From a virus: a stretch of 32,619 bases of DNA. A program made the translations under genes and the position numbers. Under the pieces are notes generated by a model. It was not told the origin of the DNA. It was given only the letters and a program-made list of their open reading frames with translations, and ran no database searches. Location: the IMG/VR virus record IMGVR_UViG_3300020406_000001, positions 1 to 32,619 of that record, one strand, 5' to 3'. Positions 1 to 32,619 of this stretch are shown one piece after another; position 1 is the first letter of the stretch; each line of letters starts with the position of its first letter.

Positions 1-55
1 TAGTATCAGTTAATCCTACATATTGACCTGTGCCACTAGCATTTTGATGTGACCA
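1..55. repeat. Terminal direct repeat, left copy (assembly overlap)
   Basis: These 55 bases are identical to 32565-32619. The bases next to the two copies differ, so the repeat is exactly 55. A 55-base exact overlap is what a k=55 assembler leaves on a circular contig, and a tail-fibre reading frame continues without a break from position 1 to 32564. It is therefore most likely an artefact showing circularity or circular permutation, not a true packaging repeat, which in T7-like phages is longer. Confidence 0.93.
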
Positions 56-1849
56 AGGAGAAGGATAAGGAACTGCACTTGTATAAGTAGCTGCACTATG
101 ATTGTTTAATGTACCCCTTGACTCATATCCAAAGTACCAATGCCTACCATTAGTATCTATCATATAAACTGCCGGAGATTGATAACCAGATGTCATCTTA
201 GGATACATCTTAGCTATTGCAGTTCTTGGAAATTGTAATTCTGTTGTAGATATAGATCCGTCAGTAGAACTATTAATAGTATTATATTTGTTGGTATCAA
301 ATACATCTGTGATGGGTTGATCCCAAGAAGTCTGACCCGTTGTATTGCCTCTGCCTAATGTTCCGACACCATTGTATCCGGCATTATAAATAGTATTGTT
401 CGGGTTACCGGGAGTTCCACCAAAGGCGTGAACAGATGATGTTGCCCCATATCCTGTTACCATTATAGAACTGAATGTTAGAGATCCACCAATGTCTGTC
501 CAAGCAGATCTGTTACTCGTTGTGCCATCTCCGAGTTGGCCGTTTCCGTTATAGCCTATGCCATATAAATCTCCATCTGATTGAAGTGCATACACAGGCC
601 CATTGACATTACCATTATAGTAATAAGTAGTTTGATTTAAAATTTGTACTACATTAGATACACCCGTAATTATAGAGAATGTTGTTTTAGCAGATCCACC
701 TTGGTTGCCTCCGTCATTTGCTCCTGTGCTATGTACTGCACCATTTGTATCAATTAGATGTGCAGATCTATAACCGGCAGAAATAGAAAGGATAGATCCT
801 ACTGTAGATATAAGTTGAGGTTTAGTAACATTAGATGTAGATCCTTGACCAAGACATCCATTTGATCCGGCTCCCATAACAAACAATCTGTTATTTTCAT
901 CAATTAAATACCATCTCTGTAATCCCCCCATACCTTGGTATCCACCAATATTAGGTTGAGCCACACCAATGATACGAGATTGTAAACTATTCCAAGTAGC
1001 ACCTACTCCAACATAAGGATTTTTAACCCATTGGTGTCTGTCTACAGTAGAGTTAATTCCTAATGCACCTTCATTGTTCTGACCATTAACAAAGATGTTA
1101 CCTTTGTTTGTAAGAAACAATCCGGTGTTATGCATATACCAAATTCTTACAGGATGCTCATCTGCTGCCATACCACCAAACTCAGTATTGATGGACATAA
1201 CAACTCTACGACTATGATTGTTGTATCCGGCTCCACTATATGCACCACCTAATCCACTTTCTGCCGGAGAGTATCCGGTGTGAACTATTTCATAGTTTGT
1301 ATTGATGTACATAAAGAATGGAGAAGATGTTGTCGGTAGCGTCCTGTCTCGTTTCACAGGGCCACAAGCTCCATTAGGCATTCCGTCATAAGGAATATAT
1401 TCAGATCCACTTGTATAATTAGCTAACCAAGGATACTTACCATTACTAGCATATGTACTAGAACTATCCATATCTGCAATGGGTGGTATGTTAGATCCTA
1501 GGATCTTATAACCTTCATATCCACTTTGAGCAGCAAAGGTTAAACCAGAAGATGATGCAGATAACACCTCTCCGGCATTGCCTTTAGGTATTCTGATTTG
1601 GCTAGATCCATCGTGTGAAAGAATATCTCCGGCAGTAGTAAGAACTGTTGATCCTTCTGCCATTACTAGCCAATGTGTTGAGTTTGATGATGAAGGGTTG
1701 CCGGCAGCAGAGCCGGTCTTACTTGTTGAGTTTACATATATCCAAGAACTACCACCAAAAGAAACCACATCGTCTTTCTCATATGTAGTTCCGGTAGCAA
1801 ATGCTCCTTTGAATGTGAACTTTAATTTTCCTATGTCAATTGTGGCCAC
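1..1849 (-). CDS. RCC1-repeat tail fibre / receptor-binding protein (N-terminal part; continues at 32564-32395)
   Basis: Starts at GTG 1849 behind a strong AGGAGG (1860-1855), 11 bases after the upstream fibre gene stops. The frame stays open to base 1 and resumes at 32564, ending at TAA 32397-32395: 672 residues in all. The N-terminus (VATIDIGKLKFTFKG... with YEKDDVV) looks like a short carbohydrate-module-like or fibre-joining segment. From about residue 190 on there are at least six repeats of the RCC1 type, e.g. LFVMGAGSNGCLGQG, LYGIGYNGNGQLGDG and AGYNGVGTLGRG. RCC1 repeats fold as blades of a seven-bladed beta-propeller in known proteins. Position last in the tail module suggests a virion-surface adhesin that binds the host receptor. 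RCC1 assignment is from visible motifs; the receptor role is inferred. Confidence 0.85.
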   Translation of the reverse strand, partial: MATIDIGKLKFTFKGAFATGTTYEKDDVVSFGGSSWIYVNSTSKTGSAAGNPSSSNSTHWLVMAEGSTVLTTAGDILSHDGSSQIRIPKGNAGEVLSASSSGLTFAAQSGYEGYKILGSNIPPIADMDSSSTYASNGKYPWLANYTSGSEYIPYDGMPNGACGPVKRDRTLPTTSSPFFMYINTNYEIVHTGYSPAESGLGGAYSGAGYNNHSRRVVMSINTEFGGMAADEHPVRIWYMHNTGLFLTNKGNIFVNGQNNEGALGINSTVDRHQWVKNPYVGVGATWNSLQSRIIGVAQPNIGGYQGMGGLQRWYLIDENNRLFVMGAGSNGCLGQGSTSNVTKPQLISTVGSILSISAGYRSAHLIDTNGAVHSTGANDGGNQGGSAKTTFSIITGVSNVVQILNQTTYYYNGNVNGPVYALQSDGDLYGIGYNGNGQLGDGTTSNRSAWTDIGGSLTFSSIMVTGYGATSSVHAFGGTPGNPNNTIYNAGYNGVGTLGRGNTTGQTSWDQPITDVFDTNKYNTINSSTDGSISTTELQFPRTAIAKMYPKMTSGYQSPAVYMIDTNGRHWYFGYESRGTLNNHSAATYTSAVPYPSPWSHQNASGTGQYVGLTDT

Positions 1850-1860
1850 CTATACCTCCT

Positions 1861-2811
1861 TTATGGTAATGTTACTTGCAAATGTCCGTTGGTATCTATT
1901 GCAAATGTTACACTACCACTTGCAAAAATGTAGTTGTCATCGTACTCCGACAATACTAAAGCCTCACTACCACCAGATGTTGTCTGATCTACCTTGAGAG
2001 TTCCTGTTGCACTATCTTTGTATATACCAAAAAATCTAGATCCACTTGAGGCAGAGACTTGTGTACTTATTGCCTGTGATACTCTTAGTGGTGTCATACC
2101 TTTGGTATTTTCTGTGCCGGCTTGTGCCTCTGATTGTGATGCTATTGCAGAAAAAACGCCATTAGCACCGGCAGATCCTTGTGATCCTTGAGGTATACCA
2201 AAACTAAAAGATATATCTCCTGTACTTGAAGTATAAGTAGCACTTGCAGTAGCACTAACTCCGGCTCCTAATGTCGTAACTGCTCCAATAGATGCAGATG
2301 AAACTGCCGGATCTGAGACTTCTGGATTTCCTGTTGAACTATTAAAGGATAATAACTTACCTAATCTTGCAGATTTGCTTGGTATTGTGAAACTACTTGT
2401 TGCCGGTTCATCAACCGGAGCTTTTATAGATCTATTGTTCTTCTCTTCTAGATCTCCTATTTGCATTGTTATTGTGTCAAAGTCTCCTTCTAAGGCTTGT
2501 GCAGTTACATTACCACCAGAAGAATAAACACTAGATCTGGCAACGGGTACATCTGATAATATAACAACTGTGTCTGAAGAAGTAGGTGCAGAAACAAATC
2601 TAATTGTTCCTGTTCCATCGGCGTTAAGACCGGCAGATCCGGTAGAAGTAACTACAGAGTAATCGTTTGTCTCTTGTTTTTGTGTGGAACCTAGAAAAAC
2701 TTTAAGGTCAGAGGTATTATTAACTTGGAAGGAAAAATTAAAATCTACTAGATTTCCATTACCCTGTGCAGTTACTCTTCGTACTTGGTCATTAACACTA
2801 AATGTAGCCAT
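1861..2811 (-). CDS. T7 gp17-like tail fibre, N-terminal attachment type
   Basis: 316 residues. The first ~120 residues (MATFSVNDQVRRVTAQGNG..., F-N-F-S-F, DYSVVTSTG, IRFVSAPTSSDTVVI, ALEGDFDTITMQIGDLEE) match the layout of the T7 tail-fibre N-terminal domain that docks the fibre on the tail. The middle has a short collagen-like stretch (GIPQGSQGSAGANG, near residue 207-220), then a small C-terminal domain with little resemblance to a receptor domain. The protein is short for a complete fibre, so it may serve as an adaptor for the RCC1 protein encoded just downstream (11-base gap). The adaptor role is inference; family membership is fairly sure. Confidence 0.85.
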   Translation of the reverse strand: MATFSVNDQVRRVTAQGNGNLVDFNFSFQVNNTSDLKVFLGSTQKQETNDYSVVTSTGSAGLNADGTGTIRFVSAPTSSDTVVILSDVPVARSSVYSSGGNVTAQALEGDFDTITMQIGDLEEKNNRSIKAPVDEPATSSFTIPSKSARLGKLLSFNSSTGNPEVSDPAVSSASIGAVTTLGAGVSATASATYTSSTGDISFSFGIPQGSQGSAGANGVFSAIASQSEAQAGTENTKGMTPLRVSQAISTQVSASSGSRFFGIYKDSATGTLKVDQTTSGGSEALVLSEYDDNYIFASGSVTFAIDTNGHLQVTLP

Positions 2812-10210: not shown

Positions 10211-10945
10211 TTACACTACCTTTTTAAATTCAAGACCAAGAACATTATAGTCAACGGCTAAGAAGTGATCTGAATGATCAACTGCTTTTGGAAATTTTTC
10301 TAATACTTCTTGAGCAATTACTCCTATGTATTTAGTTTTATCCCAAATGTAATTAAACATATACAAATTCAATCCTGTCTCGTGATGTACTCCAACTTTC
10401 TTAATGTTTTCTTTTGCTCTTATATCACTTGTTGTTGTTGTCTTACTCATATTCGGAAATAAACTTGGGGCAGCAGAAGGCCCATAAGTTAATCCAACAG
10501 TAGCAACATTTGTAAATACTCCGGCCATTGCACTTTTCTTAGCAGTTCTAAGAGCATTCTCTCCGGCTACTCTATAGTTCGCTGCTTGGAACTGACCCAT
10601 TTGAGTTGATATAGTTGCATTGTCTCTAGCTACTGTAAAATCGTTTACTGCCTCTCTAAGTGAATAACCCATAAGAATATCTGTTGTATCTCCTGTAGAG
10701 TATGGGTTCATATTCCCAGATCCGGCACGGGCATTAAGGGTAGCCATAGTTTTGTTTAGTTGTTTTAAATCATCTATTCCTTTTTCTTTATAGTTGATTG
10801 CATCTCTTCTACCTTGGATCTCTGCCTCACGAGCTCTAGCCTCCATCAATCCTTTCTCGGCCTTACCGGCATCAACAGTTGCCATATATTGTAAAGCAGT
10901 TCCTCCGATTGCAGCTGCCAAAAGTACAGGTTCTAATCCACTCAT
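10211..10945 (-). CDS. gp14-like internal virion protein with C-terminal peptidase S74 (intramolecular chaperone) domain
   Basis: 244 residues. The N-terminal ~165 residues begin with a hydrophobic helix (VLLAAAIGGTALQYM) and continue with Ala-rich helices of the kind seen in T7 gp14-like core proteins (MGQFQAANYRVAGENAL). From residue ~172 comes SDIRAKENIKKVG, then YMFNYIWDKTKYIGVIAQEV and FLAVDYNVLG, the classic S74 chaperone signature. In endosialidase-type S74 domains a Ser and a Lys five residues later make the self-cleaving pair; S173 and K178 have that spacing. S74 is usually on trimeric fibres, so its fusion to a core protein is odd. The gene sits directly after tail tube B, as gene 14 follows genes 11/12 in T7. 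Confidence 0.8.
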   Translation of the reverse strand: MSGLEPVLLAAAIGGTALQYMATVDAGKAEKGLMEARAREAEIQGRRDAINYKEKGIDDLKQLNKTMATLNARAGSGNMNPYSTGDTTDILMGYSLREAVNDFTVARDNATISTQMGQFQAANYRVAGENALRTAKKSAMAGVFTNVATVGLTYGPSAAPSLFPNMSKTTTTSDIRAKENIKKVGVHHETGLNLYMFNYIWDKTKYIGVIAQEVLEKFPKAVDHSDHFLAVDYNVLGLEFKKVV

Positions 10946-19374: not shown

Positions 19375-20902
19375 CAAAATCTAATACCCTTGCTTGTTGT
19401 TGATTACCAAATTGACCGGCTCTACTTACCATTCTTTTATGTTCTCCTCCTCCTAATAGTGCATAACCAAATGCATCTCCAATATGTGAGTGATTATTTT
19501 TTACGGGTTGATCCTTGTAGACCTCGGTGCCAGATCCCTTCATAACTCTTTGGAAATGATACCCACCATTTAATGATTTAATTAATTGAGTACATTTTTT
19601 AGAAACAATTAATCCCGGCTTGCCTTCTATCAATCTTGTCATTGGTATGGCTCCGGCCTCTCTTCTAGTTCTAAAATCATTTGTATTTGTTGGACGAGCT
19701 AAGATACCATTTGCATTTAGATGTTGAAATGCAGTAGTCTCATAGATCTGGTCTCTCTGATTTCCTGCCGGATCTCCCCATACATTGAATTTAAATTTTG
19801 GAAAATATAATTCCATCTCTGACTTTAACAAAGATACAAATCTATTTAATCCAATATCAAATGTAACTAACTCGTGTAGTATGTGCCATCTACCATTAGG
19901 CATTCTCTGGGCGAACACGGCAGCCGGAGTAAGTCCAAAGTCTAATCCGATATTTACAGGATACTTTGGATCTGGCTCTAGTTCATCCCCGATCATATTT
20001 TCTGGATCAAACTCGTGCCATACACTCTTTCCTTCTTTTACAAAAGTATATTTACCTTCTGCATAACATCTGATCCAATCAAGACTTTTTCCTCCAAGTA
20101 ATTGTTCATAGTATCCATCCGGAAGGTTTATTAAATTTTCTGCTTTAGGATTTGTTCTCCACCATCTACCCGATGCAAAATAATATCCTTGTGCCTCTGG
20201 CATATCTTGAGGTACTTTTGAATGAGGTATTTCTAAAACTCCACTTGGTTGTTTAAAAAACTCCCAAGAAAATTTTCCTTTAGGTTTTTCTTTTTCTGCA
20301 TATCTGTAGTACCAATGATCATCATCCATACTATTGGTATCAAGTATAATCCCATATTGCGATGGGCCACCATCAGATCTGGTAGGGTATCTACCCACAC
20401 GATGAGACAAACCTTGTATAATCTGAACCGGGAGTTCTCTCGCCTCGTTGATCCAAGCACCGGTTAATTCTAAAGATAAGAGCTTTCTAACATCTTTAGC
20501 GTCATCTAATGCAAGAAAGATAACTTCCATATCTACGCCGGCTGCTCCATCTCTTGCCGGTAATTTTATGTGATGAGTTATTGGAGGAGAGTATTTGACA
20601 TTGCCCCAATAATTTTCTGGTAGTAATTCAAGCCAAGTTTTTAAAGTAGTTGTTCTTAGCATTGGATGTGTATTTCTTACGATGGCAAATCTAGAATACT
20701 TTATGCCATCTCTCGGACTAGGCTTTTGGGATAAAGCCATCTTTAAAATTTCTGCACAACACCCGTAAGATTTTCCAGAACCAACTGGCCCCATTAGTCC
20801 TCGGATAAAAGATTTAGATCCCATAAACTCTGCTATAGTAGGAGCATTGCTAAAATCAAATTGTAATGTAGAGGGCGTGTTTTTAATTTTTTTTTCTGTC
20901 AT
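19361..20902 (-). CDS. Terminase large subunit
   Basis: 513 residues. Walker A is GPVGSGKS at residues 38-45 and a Walker-B-like segment with acidic residue is GAWINEARELP near 160, which together power packaging. The C-terminal nuclease shows IGLDFGLTPAAVF near 320, WGDPAGNQRD near 385, and the third acidic site NNHSHIGDAFGYALLG near 480. ATG 20902 overlaps the methyltransferase stop (ATGA). The small subunit candidate is encoded 1.4 kb upstream at 22319-22747. Complete and intact. Confidence 0.97.
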   Translation of the reverse strand: MTEKKIKNTPSTLQFDFSNAPTIAEFMGSKSFIRGLMGPVGSGKSYGCCAEILKMALSQKPSPRDGIKYSRFAIVRNTHPMLRTTTLKTWLELLPENYWGNVKYSPPITHHIKLPARDGAAGVDMEVIFLALDDAKDVRKLLSLELTGAWINEARELPVQIIQGLSHRVGRYPTRSDGGPSQYGIILDTNSMDDDHWYYRYAEKEKPKGKFSWEFFKQPSGVLEIPHSKVPQDMPEAQGYYFASGRWWRTNPKAENLINLPDGYYEQLLGGKSLDWIRCYAEGKYTFVKEGKSVWHEFDPENMIGDELEPDPKYPVNIGLDFGLTPAAVFAQRMPNGRWHILHELVTFDIGLNRFVSLLKSEMELYFPKFKFNVWGDPAGNQRDQIYETTAFQHLNANGILARPTNTNDFRTRREAGAIPMTRLIEGKPGLIVSKKCTQLIKSLNGGYHFQRVMKGSGTEVYKDQPVKNNHSHIGDAFGYALLGGGEHKRMVSRAGQFGNQQQARVLDFDVFS

Positions 20903-21936
20903 AATCTTTCCTGTATTATTATTGCTTTAAAAAATTCTGCAGCGACTTGAGGTACTATACTATTTCCCAACGCCTTCAACTTTTGAGATCTTTCTTTTTG
21001 GTTTGTGGCAACTCTTGGAACTCCTTCTGGTTCTTCTCGGAAATGTCCAGATAGTTCTTGGGGTAACCCATTAACCAAGTTACCCATTCGTAATTCAAGT
21101 TCCCTTCTACTTTCTGGGTTGGGTCTTTTATCGCTAGTGTTAACGGCGTACCTCCTTGAGAGTATTTCTTGGTTCTGTCTGTCACTATGTCTTGAGTAGG
21201 AGTAGGAAACATTCTTTGATTGTGTGCTACTGCCGTAACTAAAGTTGTTTGAGATCCCTTGTTCTCCTGTAGATGTTTCTCGGATCTTGGGCCTCTCTGT
21301 CCATCCCAAGCATTCGGTGTCGGCCACATCATCTTCACTCGGTCTGCTAAATTCAAAGAGTGACTGCTCTTGCCCTTGGTCGGTTCCCTTCTGCCTTTCT
21401 CGTTCAAAGTCATATTGGGGTGTTCTGTATCTTGGGTTGTCGGAGTAGGCAACAATCCAAACTCTGTCTCTTCGGTGTGGTGCATCTTGGGAGCAAGCCG
21501 GAACAATAAACGATTGTACTTCGTAGTTGTAGTTTTCCAAGTCAATGCACAATTTCTGGAATAGATCCCCATCGTCAATGTTAACAATGCCCGGCACATT
21601 TTCTCCAATGATCCATCTGGGTTTACAATCTTGTATAACTCTAAGCATCTCATCCCAGAGCCAACGATCATCTTTTGCTCCCTCTCTTTTTCCACTTTGT
21701 GACACCGGTTGGCAAGGGAACCCTCCAACAACGACATCTGCTTTAATTTTTCTTGCATCCAATCTCCTTATATCATCATAGATGGGTACATCCTTCCAAT
21801 GTTTTCTGAGAACTTTTCTACAAAAATTATCTTTTTCACAGAACCCTATGGTCTCGTACCCACCTACAAGTCTTTCGGCAGCGTAACTAAAACCTCCAAT
21901 CCCAGAAAATAAATCTAAGATTTTTAGTTTATGCAT
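20899..21936 (-). CDS. C5-cytosine DNA methyltransferase
   Basis: 345 residues with all main motifs in order: I LDLFSGIGGFSYA (8-19), IV GGFPCQPVSQSG (71-82, catalytic Cys75), VI GENVPG (111-116), VIII QDAPHRRDRVW (150-160) and X LGNSIVPQVAAEFF near the end. Between VIII and X lies a target-recognition region with three V-A/S-D/Y-S/T-like segments (VAYSDNPRYR, VADTECLGW, VSYSYSRHS). Recognition site is not deducible; CCGG, strongly enriched in this genome, is a candidate. It probably protects phage DNA from restriction. Ribosome site GGAG, ATG 21936. A second open frame covers most of the gene (20976-21758). Confidence 0.95.
   Translation of the reverse strand: MHKLKILDLFSGIGGFSYAAERLVGGYETIGFCEKDNFCRKVLRKHWKDVPIYDDIRRLDARKIKADVVVGGFPCQPVSQSGKREGAKDDRWLWDEMLRVIQDCKPRWIIGENVPGIVNIDDGDLFQKLCIDLENYNYEVQSFIVPACSQDAPHRRDRVWIVAYSDNPRYRTPQYDFERERQKGTDQGQEQSLFEFSRPSEDDVADTECLGWTERPKIRETSTGEQGISNNFSYGSSTQSKNVSYSYSRHSDRQNQEILSRRYAVNTSDKRPNPESRRELELRMGNLVNGLPQELSGHFREEPEGVPRVATNQKERSQKLKALGNSIVPQVAAEFFKAIIIQERL
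20976..21758 (-). CDS. Nested 260-codon open frame inside the methyltransferase gene
   Basis: Same strand, other register, 260 codons without a stop, far longer than any other overlapping open frame in the window. The product has three Pro-Thr-Pro segments (LLPTPTTQDT, MWPTPNAWDG, MFPTPTQDIVTD) and a terminal YEWVTWLMGYPKNYLD. I have seen this PTP / W-V-x-W-L-M-G-[FY]-P pattern in many database proteins linked to phage C5 methyltransferases. Those may be genuine dual-coded proteins or the shadow of a conserved gene. If translated, the start is more likely one of the internal ATGs (MIVGSG..., MCRALL...) than the first. Reported as a candidate, not as an established gene. Confidence 0.3.
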   Translation of the reverse strand: MQEKLKQMSLLEGSLANRCHKVEKEREQKMIVGSGMRCLELYKIVNPDGSLEKMCRALLTLTMGIYSRNCALTWKTTTTKYNRLLFRLAPKMHHTEETEFGLLPTPTTQDTEHPNMTLNEKGRREPTKGKSSHSLNLADRVKMMWPTPNAWDGQRGPRSEKHLQENKGSQTTLVTAVAHNQRMFPTPTQDIVTDRTKKYSQGGTPLTLAIKDPTQKVEGNLNYEWVTWLMGYPKNYLDISEKNQKEFQELPQTKKKDLKS

Positions 21937-26318: not shown

Positions 26319-26523
26319 ATTAACAAGAGCAAGAAAAGAATACGATTGCTATCAATGTAAATCAATCATTGAGAAAGGCAGTATGTATTCAAAGAAGTCT
26401 ATCTCAATCGGAAGTCCAAGCAAGGAAACTTTTGAGAACAGGGATGGTATCCCTACCATAATAATGCACGGGATCAGAGTTACAAAACCCATCTGTAATA
26501 AATGTTCGGAGGATCTAAAATGA
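26311..26523 (+). CDS. Zinc-ribbon protein
   Basis: 70 residues from ATG 26311 with GAGGAA before it. Two CxxC knuckles, C13-x-x-C16 (CYQC) and C62-x-x-C65 (CNKC), would bind one zinc, with a basic N-terminus (MPKLTRARKEYD). Zinc ribbons in early phage operons often bind DNA or RNA polymerase. The stop overlaps the start of the recombinase gene by four bases. Confidence 0.7.
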   Translation: MPKLTRARKEYDCYQCKSIIEKGSMYSKKSISIGSPSKETFENRDGIPTIIMHGIRVTKPICNKCSEDLK

Positions 26524-27206
26524 AGTGTGTATTGTTGAGAGTATCTACTGATAAACAAGAAGAAGATAATCAGTTACATCCTATCAAAAAGAAATATCCC
26601 GGGGAGGATCTAAAGATCTTCCGGGAGTGTGCCGTGTCCGGAGGATTGTCTTGGGATCAGAGACCGATCCTCCACGAGGCGATCCGATATTCTAAAAAGA
26701 ATAAAGTTCCTCTGGTAGTTTATTCCCTGTCAAGATTGGGGAGAACTTCAGAGGTTGCTACATTCTTTGAACAGGAAGTAGCCAAAGGTAAAATAGAAAT
26801 TGATGTTATTGATATGCCAAACCTAGATCAGAAGATGATCGGTGGTCTTGCTTGGGTAAATACTCTGGAGAGGATTATGATCTCCGAGAGAACCAAGATG
26901 GCAATGGATAGGATCAAACATATCATAGCCACAGAAGGATCATATACGACTTCTGAGGGCATAGAAATTACCCACCTAGGTAGGAAGGATACCAAAGATG
27001 CATCGGTCATTGGTGTCGCTAAGATCAAGGAGAATGCAGATAACTTTGCAGACAATACTTATCCTCTGATCAAGTCACTACAGGATCGGGGAATGAGCCT
27101 CAAGGCGATAGCACTTGAGTTAAATAACCGAGGGATCCAGACCAGAAGAAAAGCAGAATGGTATGCCTCATCAGTAAGAAATGTGTTACAAAGGAGAGCA
27201 ATATGA
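26520..27206 (+). CDS. Small serine recombinase (resolvase/invertase family)
   Basis: 228 residues from ATG 26520 (GGAGGA site; ATGA overlap). The catalytic opening is LLRVSTDKQEEDN (nucleophile Ser9, Arg7), followed by VYSLSRLGRTSE, and a long E-helix with SERTKMAMDRIKHI. The C-terminal ~60 residues (NTYPLIKSLQDRGMSLKAIALELNNRGIQTRRKAEWYASSVRNVLQRR) form the helix-turn-helix. The size is that of resolvases and invertases, not of the large serine integrases (>400 residues). Possible roles: resolving genome multimers, inverting a segment, or integration. I saw no convincing pair of inverted crossover sites. Confidence 0.9.
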   Translation: MKCVLLRVSTDKQEEDNQLHPIKKKYPGEDLKIFRECAVSGGLSWDQRPILHEAIRYSKKNKVPLVVYSLSRLGRTSEVATFFEQEVAKGKIEIDVIDMPNLDQKMIGGLAWVNTLERIMISERTKMAMDRIKHIIATEGSYTTSEGIEITHLGRKDTKDASVIGVAKIKENADNFADNTYPLIKSLQDRGMSLKAIALELNNRGIQTRRKAEWYASSVRNVLQRRAI

Positions 27207-27372: not shown

Positions 27373-28365
27373 ATGCCAAAGTTAACTATTGATGGCAAGC
27401 AAGTTGGATCATCTGACATTGCTTGTCTTGTTTTACAGAAGGATAGTTTCCAAACAAGAGACCAGATCTACGAGAGACATTTTAATGCGAGGCATAAAGT
27501 TTCTACGATGAGAGATCATCAACTCAAAAAGCTCTGGGCAATACAAAGAGGTAATGAGTTAGAGTTACCGACATTTAAATTGTTCTGGAATAATCTATTG
27601 ATGGAGATTGAAAGTACCTACGGGGATCTCCCGGATCTGGATGACTTGTCTTGGATCCAACCGGACTTTGCCTATGTTCCAGAATATTACAACAAAAACC
27701 ATAAGGCTCTGGGAATGGGTTCAAGTATAGACTTCATAATTAAATCGTCAAAAGAATATGAAGTCCAAGTCCGGGGGCAGCCGATCAAGATCTTCCCGGG
27801 AAAAAACATTATTGAAATCAAAACAGATTTTTATAAGGGAGGTAAACTCAAACCCGAATGGAGTTTGCAAGTACAACATCAGATGATCTGTGCCGGAGTA
27901 AAGCACGGCATTGTAGTTTGCTTTGCAAGTGATGGAGATCTACATCTCTATCCAATGGAGATCAATGAAAAGATCTGCAAAGTTATTATGAAAAAGTGTA
28001 AAGAATTTTGGGAGATGATTGAGGATGGAAAAAGATATCCTCCAATATCTGAAACTCAAGATACATCTCTGCGAACTAAAACTCTTGATGAAACTATTCT
28101 AAAGAAAACAAATCAAGATATGGTTCAAATGTCCGAGGACTATCTGGTTGCCTCGGTTGAAGAGAGGAAGTGGAAGAAAACTAAGGATGGTATTAAACAA
28201 GATATAGTAGAACTCTTGGATAATCTTGAGATAGATGTTCTTACAATACCAGATCAATACCAAATAAAATCTGTTACTACCGAGGTTCCCAAAAAGAAAA
28301 TGGTGGAGACCGGGCATATGACAGAGAGACATTCATTTACAATAAAGGAGATAAAGGATGAATAA
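27373..28365 (+). CDS. YqaJ-type recombination exonuclease
   Basis: 330 residues. The PD-(D/E)XK catalytic set is visible: RGNELE (E62), GSSIDFII (D120), IIEIKTDF (E148-x-K150) and SLQVQHQMICAG (Q168-H-Q170), the typical order of YqaJ / lambda exonuclease-like proteins. It degrades one strand of double-stranded ends for a RecT-type annealase, which is encoded immediately downstream with an ATGA-like overlap at 28358. The pair would support recombination-dependent replication or concatemer formation, consistent with the lack of a phage DNA polymerase. Confidence 0.9.
   Translation: MPKLTIDGKQVGSSDIACLVLQKDSFQTRDQIYERHFNARHKVSTMRDHQLKKLWAIQRGNELELPTFKLFWNNLLMEIESTYGDLPDLDDLSWIQPDFAYVPEYYNKNHKALGMGSSIDFIIKSSKEYEVQVRGQPIKIFPGKNIIEIKTDFYKGGKLKPEWSLQVQHQMICAGVKHGIVVCFASDGDLHLYPMEINEKICKVIMKKCKEFWEMIEDGKRYPPISETQDTSLRTKTLDETILKKTNQDMVQMSEDYLVASVEERKWKKTKDGIKQDIVELLDNLEIDVLTIPDQYQIKSVTTEVPKKKMVETGHMTERHSFTIKEIKDE
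27695..27713 (+). repeat. 19-bp exact direct repeat, copy 1 (inside the exonuclease gene)
   Basis: AAAACCATAAGGCTCTGGG, identical to 29551-29569. Here it encodes the residues around NHKALG just before the GSSID motif of the exonuclease. A 19-mer repeat is not expected by chance in 32 kb. Confidence 0.9.
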
Positions 28366-29320
28366 TAAATTAGTAAACATAGATAACAAATCATCTATGG
28401 ATCTAGCAAATCAGTTGGCTAAAAGTGAATTAGTTCCGGTAGCCTACCGAGGTAAGCCAGAGAATATTCTGGTAGCAATGCAATGGGGAAGAGAGATCGG
28501 ACTAACGCCGATGAGATCACTCAATAGCCTTGCCGTTATAAATGGAAAGCCGGCAGTTTATGGAGATGAACTTCTTGCTTTAGTTAAGTCACATCCAAAG
28601 TTTGCCGGGATGAAAGAATGGTTAGAGAAGGATGATAAAGGAGATCAGACTACTGCCTTCTGTGAAATTAAAAGGCAAGTCGGTAATGAGATTGAGGTTA
28701 CCCTTGGTAAGTTTTCTGTAGAGGATAGCAAGAAGGCTAGGCTCTGGGGAAAGCAAGGGCCTTGGTCGCAGTATCCTTGGAGGATGTTAAAGATGCGAGC
28801 AAGAGGCTTTGCTATTAGAGATAGTTTTCCGGATGCTCTCAAAGGGATAATCACTTACGAGGAGATGAGAGACTATCCCGATGAGGCACACGGGGAGGAT
28901 GCAGAAAAACAAATCAAAGTTCTTCCATCGGATGCATCTAATCTTGATGCTCTTGCCGACAAGGTTCAGAGCATTGAGGATCAGACAACGCCAGACTTAA
29001 CAAGAGAACTCATTATACCCGGTAAGGAAAGCAGAACCTTTGACAACGAGTTAGACTTTTGCAAAGCCTTCGCCGATATAATACTAAGAGTAAACCAAGT
29101 AGAGCATTGGAGCAATGCTACAAAGAGAGAGAAAGTAGAGGCTTTCCAGAAAGCAAATGCAGAAACTCTTGAGAACTTGGAAGATAAAGATCTGCAACAA
29201 GAGATGATGGATAAGTTAAAGAACTTCTATCAATGGCAAGAGGCAGAGGAGATAGCAGAGACCGAGAGGCTTTCTGCTTTAGCCGATGAGATGGATCCAG
29301 AGGGAGATCCAAATGAATAG
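28358..29320 (+). CDS. RecT-family single-strand annealing protein
   Basis: 320 residues. Characteristic segments are NILVAMQWGREIGLTPMRSLNSLAVINGKPAVYGDELLALVKSH, TAFCEIKRQ, KFSVEDSKKARLWGKQGPWSQYPWRMLKMRARGFAIRDSFPDALKGI, and then an EEMRDYPDE end; this is the RecT/Bet-like core fold. The last ~130 residues are an acidic helical tail, possibly for partner binding. Translationally coupled to the YqaJ-like exonuclease (8-base overlap) and to the next gene (ATGAATAG). Anneals complementary strands at the ends left by the exonuclease. Confidence 0.92.
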   Translation: MNNKLVNIDNKSSMDLANQLAKSELVPVAYRGKPENILVAMQWGREIGLTPMRSLNSLAVINGKPAVYGDELLALVKSHPKFAGMKEWLEKDDKGDQTTAFCEIKRQVGNEIEVTLGKFSVEDSKKARLWGKQGPWSQYPWRMLKMRARGFAIRDSFPDALKGIITYEEMRDYPDEAHGEDAEKQIKVLPSDASNLDALADKVQSIEDQTTPDLTRELIIPGKESRTFDNELDFCKAFADIILRVNQVEHWSNATKREKVEAFQKANAETLENLEDKDLQQEMMDKLKNFYQWQEAEEIAETERLSALADEMDPEGDPNE

Positions 29321-31994: not shown

Positions 31995-32381
31995 CTAGCT
32001 AATGTTAAACTCTGTATCCCATTTATCATCAATCGCTTTGACCATAGCTGCAATATCACTAGCCATAGCTTTTGATGTTTCACTATCTGGCGTTCTATTC
32101 ATTTTTAATTCTTCATCAATAGAATACTTATCTCTAATATCTTTAGTCTTTTCCCCATTGATTATTTCAAGGATATCTACTCTAGCTAACAATTCAGTTT
32201 TTTCTTTAGAGGTAGCCTTTGTTAGCGTGTAACTTAGATCTTTATTAAGAGACAAATAGTTTGTCCTGTCATCTGGTTCCATCACAACATAATCAACATA
32301 CCATTTAATAATCCCTTTAGTTTCTACAGGATGATTAATTATATCGTGACTTAAATTTGCTTTATATAATGTTCTTGCCAT
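31995..32381 (-). CDS. Unknown protein following the tail-fibre gene
   Basis: 128 residues from ATG 32381, preceded by GGAGG eight bases away and only 13 bases after the fibre stop. Sequence MARTLYKANLSHDIINHPVETKGIIKWYVDYVVMEPDD..., then a helical, acidic second half (KATSKEKTELLARVDILEIINGEK...). A gene directly behind a tail fibre is often a fibre chaperone or a small fibre-associated protein; this is a guess from position. No motif recognised. Confidence 0.6.
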   Translation of the reverse strand: MARTLYKANLSHDIINHPVETKGIIKWYVDYVVMEPDDRTNYLSLNKDLSYTLTKATSKEKTELLARVDILEIINGEKTKDIRDKYSIDEELKMNRTPDSETSKAMASDIAAMVKAIDDKWDTEFNIS

Positions 32382-32394
32382 ATACCTTTCCTCC

Positions 32395-32619
32395 TTAACC
32401 CGGTGTTAGCTTTACCCATTGGGCAGATCCATAAGCGTGATTGTTACTAAAGATACCATAGTTATTATCGTATCCGGTTGCCCACAAACTACCGGCACTA
32501 TCTCTAATTATAGATACATAGTATCCAGAATAGTGATGACCAAAACAGAACATATCTTCTACAGTAGTATCAGTTAATCCTACATATTGACCTGTGCCAC
32601 TAGCATTTTGATGTGACCA
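32395..32619 (-). CDS. RCC1-repeat tail fibre, C-terminal part (continues from 1-1849)
   Basis: The last 56 codons of the fibre read leftward from 32564 (LTDTTVEDMFCFGHHYSGYYV...) through another RCC1-like blade end, SLWATGYDNNYGIF, to WVKLTPG and TAA 32397-32395. Bases 32565-32619 only repeat the left end of the window. Joining the two parts gives one uninterrupted 672-residue frame, which also argues that the circle closure is right. Confidence 0.85.
   Translation of the reverse strand, partial: WSHQNASGTGQYVGLTDTTVEDMFCFGHHYSGYYVSIIRDSAGSLWATGYDNNYGIFSNNHAYGSAQWVKLTPG
32565..32619. repeat. Terminal direct repeat, right copy (assembly overlap)
   Basis: Exact copy of bases 1-55, see left copy. 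Removing one copy gives a genome of about 32,564 bp. Confidence 0.93.

Follow-up and report, generated by a model that had tools for sequence, protein, structure and literature searches.

The stretch of viral DNA analysed here (the window; 32,619 nucleotides) has ends that share an exact overlap of 55 bp, bases 32565-32619 repeating bases 1-55, and its map is therefore circular, with a length of about 32.56 kb. On the minus strand, positions 1849..1 followed by 32564..32395 form a single open frame encoding a protein of 672 amino acids, with a GTG start and a strong AGGAGG ribosome-binding site just 5' of it. Codons 1-616 of this putative tail-fibre gene, hereafter the RCC1 gene, occupy 1..1849, and its final 56 codons and stop, which complete blade 7 of the predicted propeller, occupy 32395..32564. 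The gene was found unbroken in homologues from three other marine viral contigs (L004, L005 and L006), which encode 670, 670 and 669 amino acids and are 92, 89 and 79% identical to the window protein over the part compared. Because three independent contigs carry the gene uninterrupted, the frame across the join is real and not an artefact. A sequence-only reading of this DNA had placed a fibre gene with a 672-residue product across the circle join, as the overlap and the unbroken homologues confirm. It had also expected standard gene callers to truncate or miss the gene. The linear map does truncate it, but leaves 616 of the 672 residues in one open frame, so that a caller permitting open ends would still see it.

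The protein can be divided into three parts, all on the minus strand. Residues 1-107 (1529..1849) form an N-terminal module that matches the tail-fibre family phrog_9851 (E=4.3e-15), weakly resembles CBM5/12 and is common to fibres with other heads. N-terminal to the propeller lies a conserved middle region (residues 108-232; 1154..1528), delimited by sequence comparison, the AlphaFold model and the blade assignment. The rest (residues 233-672; 1..1153 and 32564-32395) is predicted by Pfam, AlphaFold, Foldseek and the blade assignment to be a seven-bladed RCC1-type propeller. The RCC1 gene is flanked on the same strand by a candidate fibre anchor gene 11 bp upstream (316 amino acids; 1861..2811), whose product matches podovirus tail proteins (phrog_1640) at its N-terminus, and by a small gene directly after it (128 amino acids; 31995..32381), of which most RCC1-type cassettes have a homologue. 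Searches of the window for tRNAs and Rfam families found none.

The core proteins of the window phage matched HTVC010P-type and, chiefly, MEP301-type podophages. Capsid, terminase and nozzle are 62, 60 and 46% identical to those of the Methylophilales phage MEP301, and the core gene set and order are those of MEP301 and the HTVC010P-type pelagiphages. MEP301 differs in its tail genes, which include a SPRY and DUF7483 protein, and an RCC1-type fibre is absent from its annotation. The host of MEP301 is the OM43 strain HTCC2181 (PMC8024684); an OM43-like host for the window phage is a guess, since the two phages are only distantly related. Bacterial genomes searched with the nozzle protein yielded no relative, and the host could therefore not be fixed in that way. 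Elsewhere in the window, a gene for a dcm-like C-5 cytosine DNA methyltransferase (20899-21936) lies beside the terminase gene, and one for a serine recombinase (resolvase; 26502-27206) lies beside RecE/RecT-like recombination genes (27373-29320); the MEP301 annotation also includes a recombinase-family gene.

Profile searches and structure prediction point to an RCC1-type propeller

The sequence-only reading had described repeated G-x-N-x-x-G-Q-L-G-x-G blades and proposed RCC1 profile searches. These searches bore it out: the fibre protein matched the Pfam families PF00415 (RCC1; E=4.5e-14, 53.2 bits against a cut-off of 21.7, in three stretches) and RCC1_2 (E=3.6e-6, 27 bits against a cut-off of 22). 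The RCC1-like domain PF25390 was matched with E=2.5e-24 and 86.7 bits, below its whole-domain cut-off of 150, which is a measure of stringency and not a requirement for the fold; judged by this score, the window protein appears to be a divergent RCC1-like member. All 35 gathered relatives matched both RCC1 and PF25390, and the same RCC1 family match was found in none of 14 control genomes. The solved structures reached from the fibre protein by phmmer were RPGR, HERC2, UVR8 and RCC1, while a search of NCBIfam gave no match. As for the motif itself, repeats are present, but the strict form G-x-N-x-x-G-Q-L-G occurs only once, the remaining copies being degenerate (GQNNEGALG, GAGxNGxLG, GYNGxGTLG and so on). 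The glycine-rich motif, in this degenerate form, is carried once by each of the seven predicted blades, in the c-d loop.

An AlphaFold model of the full-length L004 copy, which is 92% identical to the window protein, was obtained from 35 diverse sequences with a pLDDT of 81 and a pTM of 0.78; prediction from four close sequences only gave an unusable model (pLDDT 30). The strands of the L004 model group into seven blades of four strands each, which span residues 231-666, so that the blade assignment for the window protein rests on the predicted model of a relative. Foldseek ranked UVR8 highest (E=2.6e-22, TM-score 0.69 by target length), followed by RPGR, RCC1 and HERC2, and the best 50 matches listed were RCC1-type propellers, with no sialidase or glycosidase propeller among them. 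Prediction and fold comparison thus agree with the RCC1-type propeller that had been proposed, and assign it seven blades. The eukaryotic proteins UVR8, RPGR and RCC1 are the best solved fold matches to the phage propeller; they differ from it in their cellular signalling roles and share about 16% identity with it, and the phage protein has in addition an N-terminal fibre module and a hairpin inserted between blades 5 and 6.

The RCC1 gene lies in a tail-fibre slot

In all 26 RCC1-type loci with a detected anchor gene, the RCC1 gene lies within 30 bp behind it, the anchor proteins all being short (296-325 amino acids). An anchor homologue was undetected in three further RCC1-type loci (L121-L123). 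In sister phages, the same N-module of about 107 residues heads fibre proteins that occupy the same slot and have quite different C-termini: it is joined to an ALK/LTK glycine-rich head (PF12810) in L064 and to a Gly_rich_2 head (PF21722) in L066. In the sister phage L016, the fibre slot is occupied by a DUF7483 protein. Glycine-rich sandwich domains are known as adhesin tips from other phages, for example gp38 of S16.

Four loci of sister phages (L064 9773-12532, L065 7237-9663, L068 9772-12045 and L078 2007-4379) encode two consecutive proteins with the same N-module and different heads, which suggests that a single tail bears two types of tip. In the window, the gene after the nozzle gene (10211-10945) matches several families of tail-fibre and virion-structural proteins at their C-termini.

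With regard to the small gene, 19 of the 26 RCC1-type loci have a homologue or a same-sized gene (121-138 amino acids) at the corresponding position, and in 14 of these the copy aligns with that of the window. At a threshold of at least 120 amino acids, six loci (L071, L072, L074-L076 and L083) have no small ORF there, and one more contig ends. Comparison of the small gene with PDB chains, PHROG and Pfam gave no convincing match. From its position only, we propose that it encodes a fibre chaperone or accessory protein.

The head varies on one face and has been exchanged by recombination

In the L004 model, the a-b and c-d loops lie on one face of the propeller and the b-c and d-a loops on the opposite face. 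Using the full 672-residue window sequence, we counted variable positions among the four closest alleles and found 66 of 138 in the a-b and c-d loops compared to 14 of 116 in the b-c and d-a loops (Fisher p=5e-10, to be taken as a guide as positions are partly dependent). Among the other clades, two had the same bias (p=1e-4 and 0.011) and three lacked it. Across the family as a whole, the d-a loops vary more than the c-d loops, which do not rank as the most variable, so the recent face bias is more than a property of the fold. Positive selection was considered and found no support, as dN/dS is well below 1 throughout (less than 0.3 everywhere, the variable face included), which is purifying selection; in comparisons with the window protein, dN/dS was 0.17-0.27 on the variable face and 0.05-0.12 on the other.

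Synonymous divergence is incongruent along the locus, and from about residue 181 it delimits a head tract that includes the small gene (1..1309 and 32564-31995, minus strand; synonymous differences and nucleotide identity). Between the window and L006, synonymous differences per site were 0.17-0.23 in the anchor gene, codons 1-60 and the downstream genes, compared to 0.43-0.74 over residues 181-660, with the small gene at 0.67. Comparison with L004 gave the reverse: 0.56-0.74 in the three regions that are close to L006, and 0.15-0.25 in codons 181-420, climbing to 0.72 in codons 481-540. The small gene has diverged from both L004 and L006 (0.53 and 0.67, respectively). Since it is synonymous sites that show the incongruence, its cause is recombination rather than selection at the protein level, and the propeller has been swapped between lineages by recombination inside the gene. 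More than one exchange is likely on these sequence comparisons, because the pattern is patchy toward the C-terminus and the small gene has diverged from both relatives. The loop diversity that the sequence-only reading had suggested seeking among related phages thus takes the form, in close alleles, of variation mainly on one propeller face, in a head exchanged by recombination. No reverse transcriptase, as part of a diversity-generating retroelement, was found among the window proteins scanned, a set that omits some small ORFs.

Discussion

The above findings make it highly probable that the product of the RCC1 gene forms the distal part of a podovirus tail fibre and binds the receptor. The adhesin reading of the RCC1 head is well supported but indirect: we infer where the protein sits in the virion, its oligomeric state, its binding to a receptor and what the small gene does. 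In our model, the upstream 316-residue protein would anchor the fibre to the short tail, and the N-module of about 107 residues would attach the RCC1 protein to the shaft of this anchor. The C-terminal seven-bladed propeller would then be the head contacting the host surface, with the a-b and c-d loops of one face as the most likely site of contact, and the small downstream gene would probably aid the folding or capping of the head. Recombination inside the gene would swap heads between phages and so change or tune host recognition.

The family name invites another reading, in which the RCC1 protein serves in the virion to condense or organise the packaged DNA, a role suggested for RCC1-like proteins of jumbo and Vequintavirinae coliphages. 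RCC1-type phage proteins are filed under "DNA metabolism" in PHROGs, where phrog_4219 is the best match of the fibre protein. RCC1-type repeats also occur in virion-associated proteins of coliphages W70 (phrog_4219) and phAPEC6/121Q and of Cronobacter phage GAP32, and DNA condensation has been suggested for those of W70 and phAPEC6 (PMC11370258, PMC7247149). The virion proteins of all these phages differ from the one described here in standing alone, with a mass of about 40 kDa, and are often present in multiple copies (PMC11370258, PMC7247149, PMC5259590); the DNA role proposed in the papers cited derives from the name RCC1. We rejected this reading, which we regard as very unlikely, because the fibre slot behind an anchor gene, an attachment module shared with non-RCC1 heads and the exchange of alleles all indicate a fibre; allele exchange and one-sided loop variation would be unexpected in a DNA-binding core protein.

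Two further alternatives keep the protein at the tail. One is that the propeller degrades a surface glycan, as the sialidase-type propeller enzymes in the tailspikes of phages K1F and phi92 do (passages of PMC4901313). The location of the gene in the fibre slot and the weak CBM5/12 likeness of the N-module would fit such an enzyme; however, the best 50 fold matches listed were RCC1-type with no sialidase or glycosidase among them, and no catalytic motif was identified, outside any systematic search, making this quite improbable. The other is that the propeller is a structural spacer or cap and that the true receptor binder is encoded elsewhere, for instance by the small downstream gene. That gene belongs to no known family and has strongly diverged from its L006 counterpart along with the propeller, and separate small tip proteins have been proposed in some phages with non-contractile tails (PMC12309495). 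Conversely, the propeller is a large distal domain with variation concentrated on one face, and the six loci named above have no small ORF of at least 120 amino acids; we consider a spacer or cap unlikely.

A receptor-binding propeller has precedents. According to passages of PMC4901313, phi11 has a known receptor-binding protein with a propeller (Gp45) and others are proposed in PRD1 (P2) and phiKZ (gp131C), the propeller likewise occupying the host-facing end of the tail or vertex; those of phi11 and PRD1 are five-bladed and that of phiKZ is seven-bladed, and none is termed RCC1-type in these passages. RCC1-type tail fibres are present in databases for the Pseudomonas phages PollyC and Littlefix, the Littlefix tail fibre protein sharing with ours an RCC1-type propeller. 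In PollyC gp38, a T7-fibre-like N-terminus (just below the Pfam cut-off) is fused to RCC1 repeats, and its propeller matches the fold of ours (rmsd 4.3). It differs in having another attachment module, 16% identity in the structural alignment, and anchor and head in one protein of 867 amino acids instead of the two genes and small third one of the window. In the C. difficile phage LIBA6276, a 1627-residue protein with six RCC1-like-domain stretches (L173 5331-10214) is encoded between annotated tail-fibre genes, and a gene for a glycine-rich protein comes next. With two RCC1-region patterns, 128 matched stretches of uncultivated phage contigs were found to encode a relative. The initial view that RCC1 proteins are best known from eukaryotes and some bacterial surface proteins must thus be toned down, as they are common in phage databases and two cultivated Pseudomonas phages have RCC1-headed fibres. 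In the open-licence literature, no paper was found in which RCC1 propellers are treated as adhesin heads that phages exchange. An RCC1 head on a phage fibre has precedents, and the evidence for head exchange in the present case is unusually clear.

More generally, we give an even chance to the idea that RCC1 propellers form a widespread, general class of adhesin heads that phages exchange for one another and for glycine-rich or DUF7483/SPRY heads, often on a common module, and that many phage proteins annotated "regulator of chromosome condensation" or "DNA condensation protein" in fact bind receptors. Our data suggest that the PHROG category DNA metabolism misleads the annotation of RCC1-type proteins. 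The one-sided loop variation gives a direct, checkable prediction of the receptor-contact site. In abundant ocean phages, receptor-binding proteins are often overlooked as they resemble nothing so labelled; a recognisable fold together with a named attachment module would make RCC1-type heads findable, countable and assignable across viromes.
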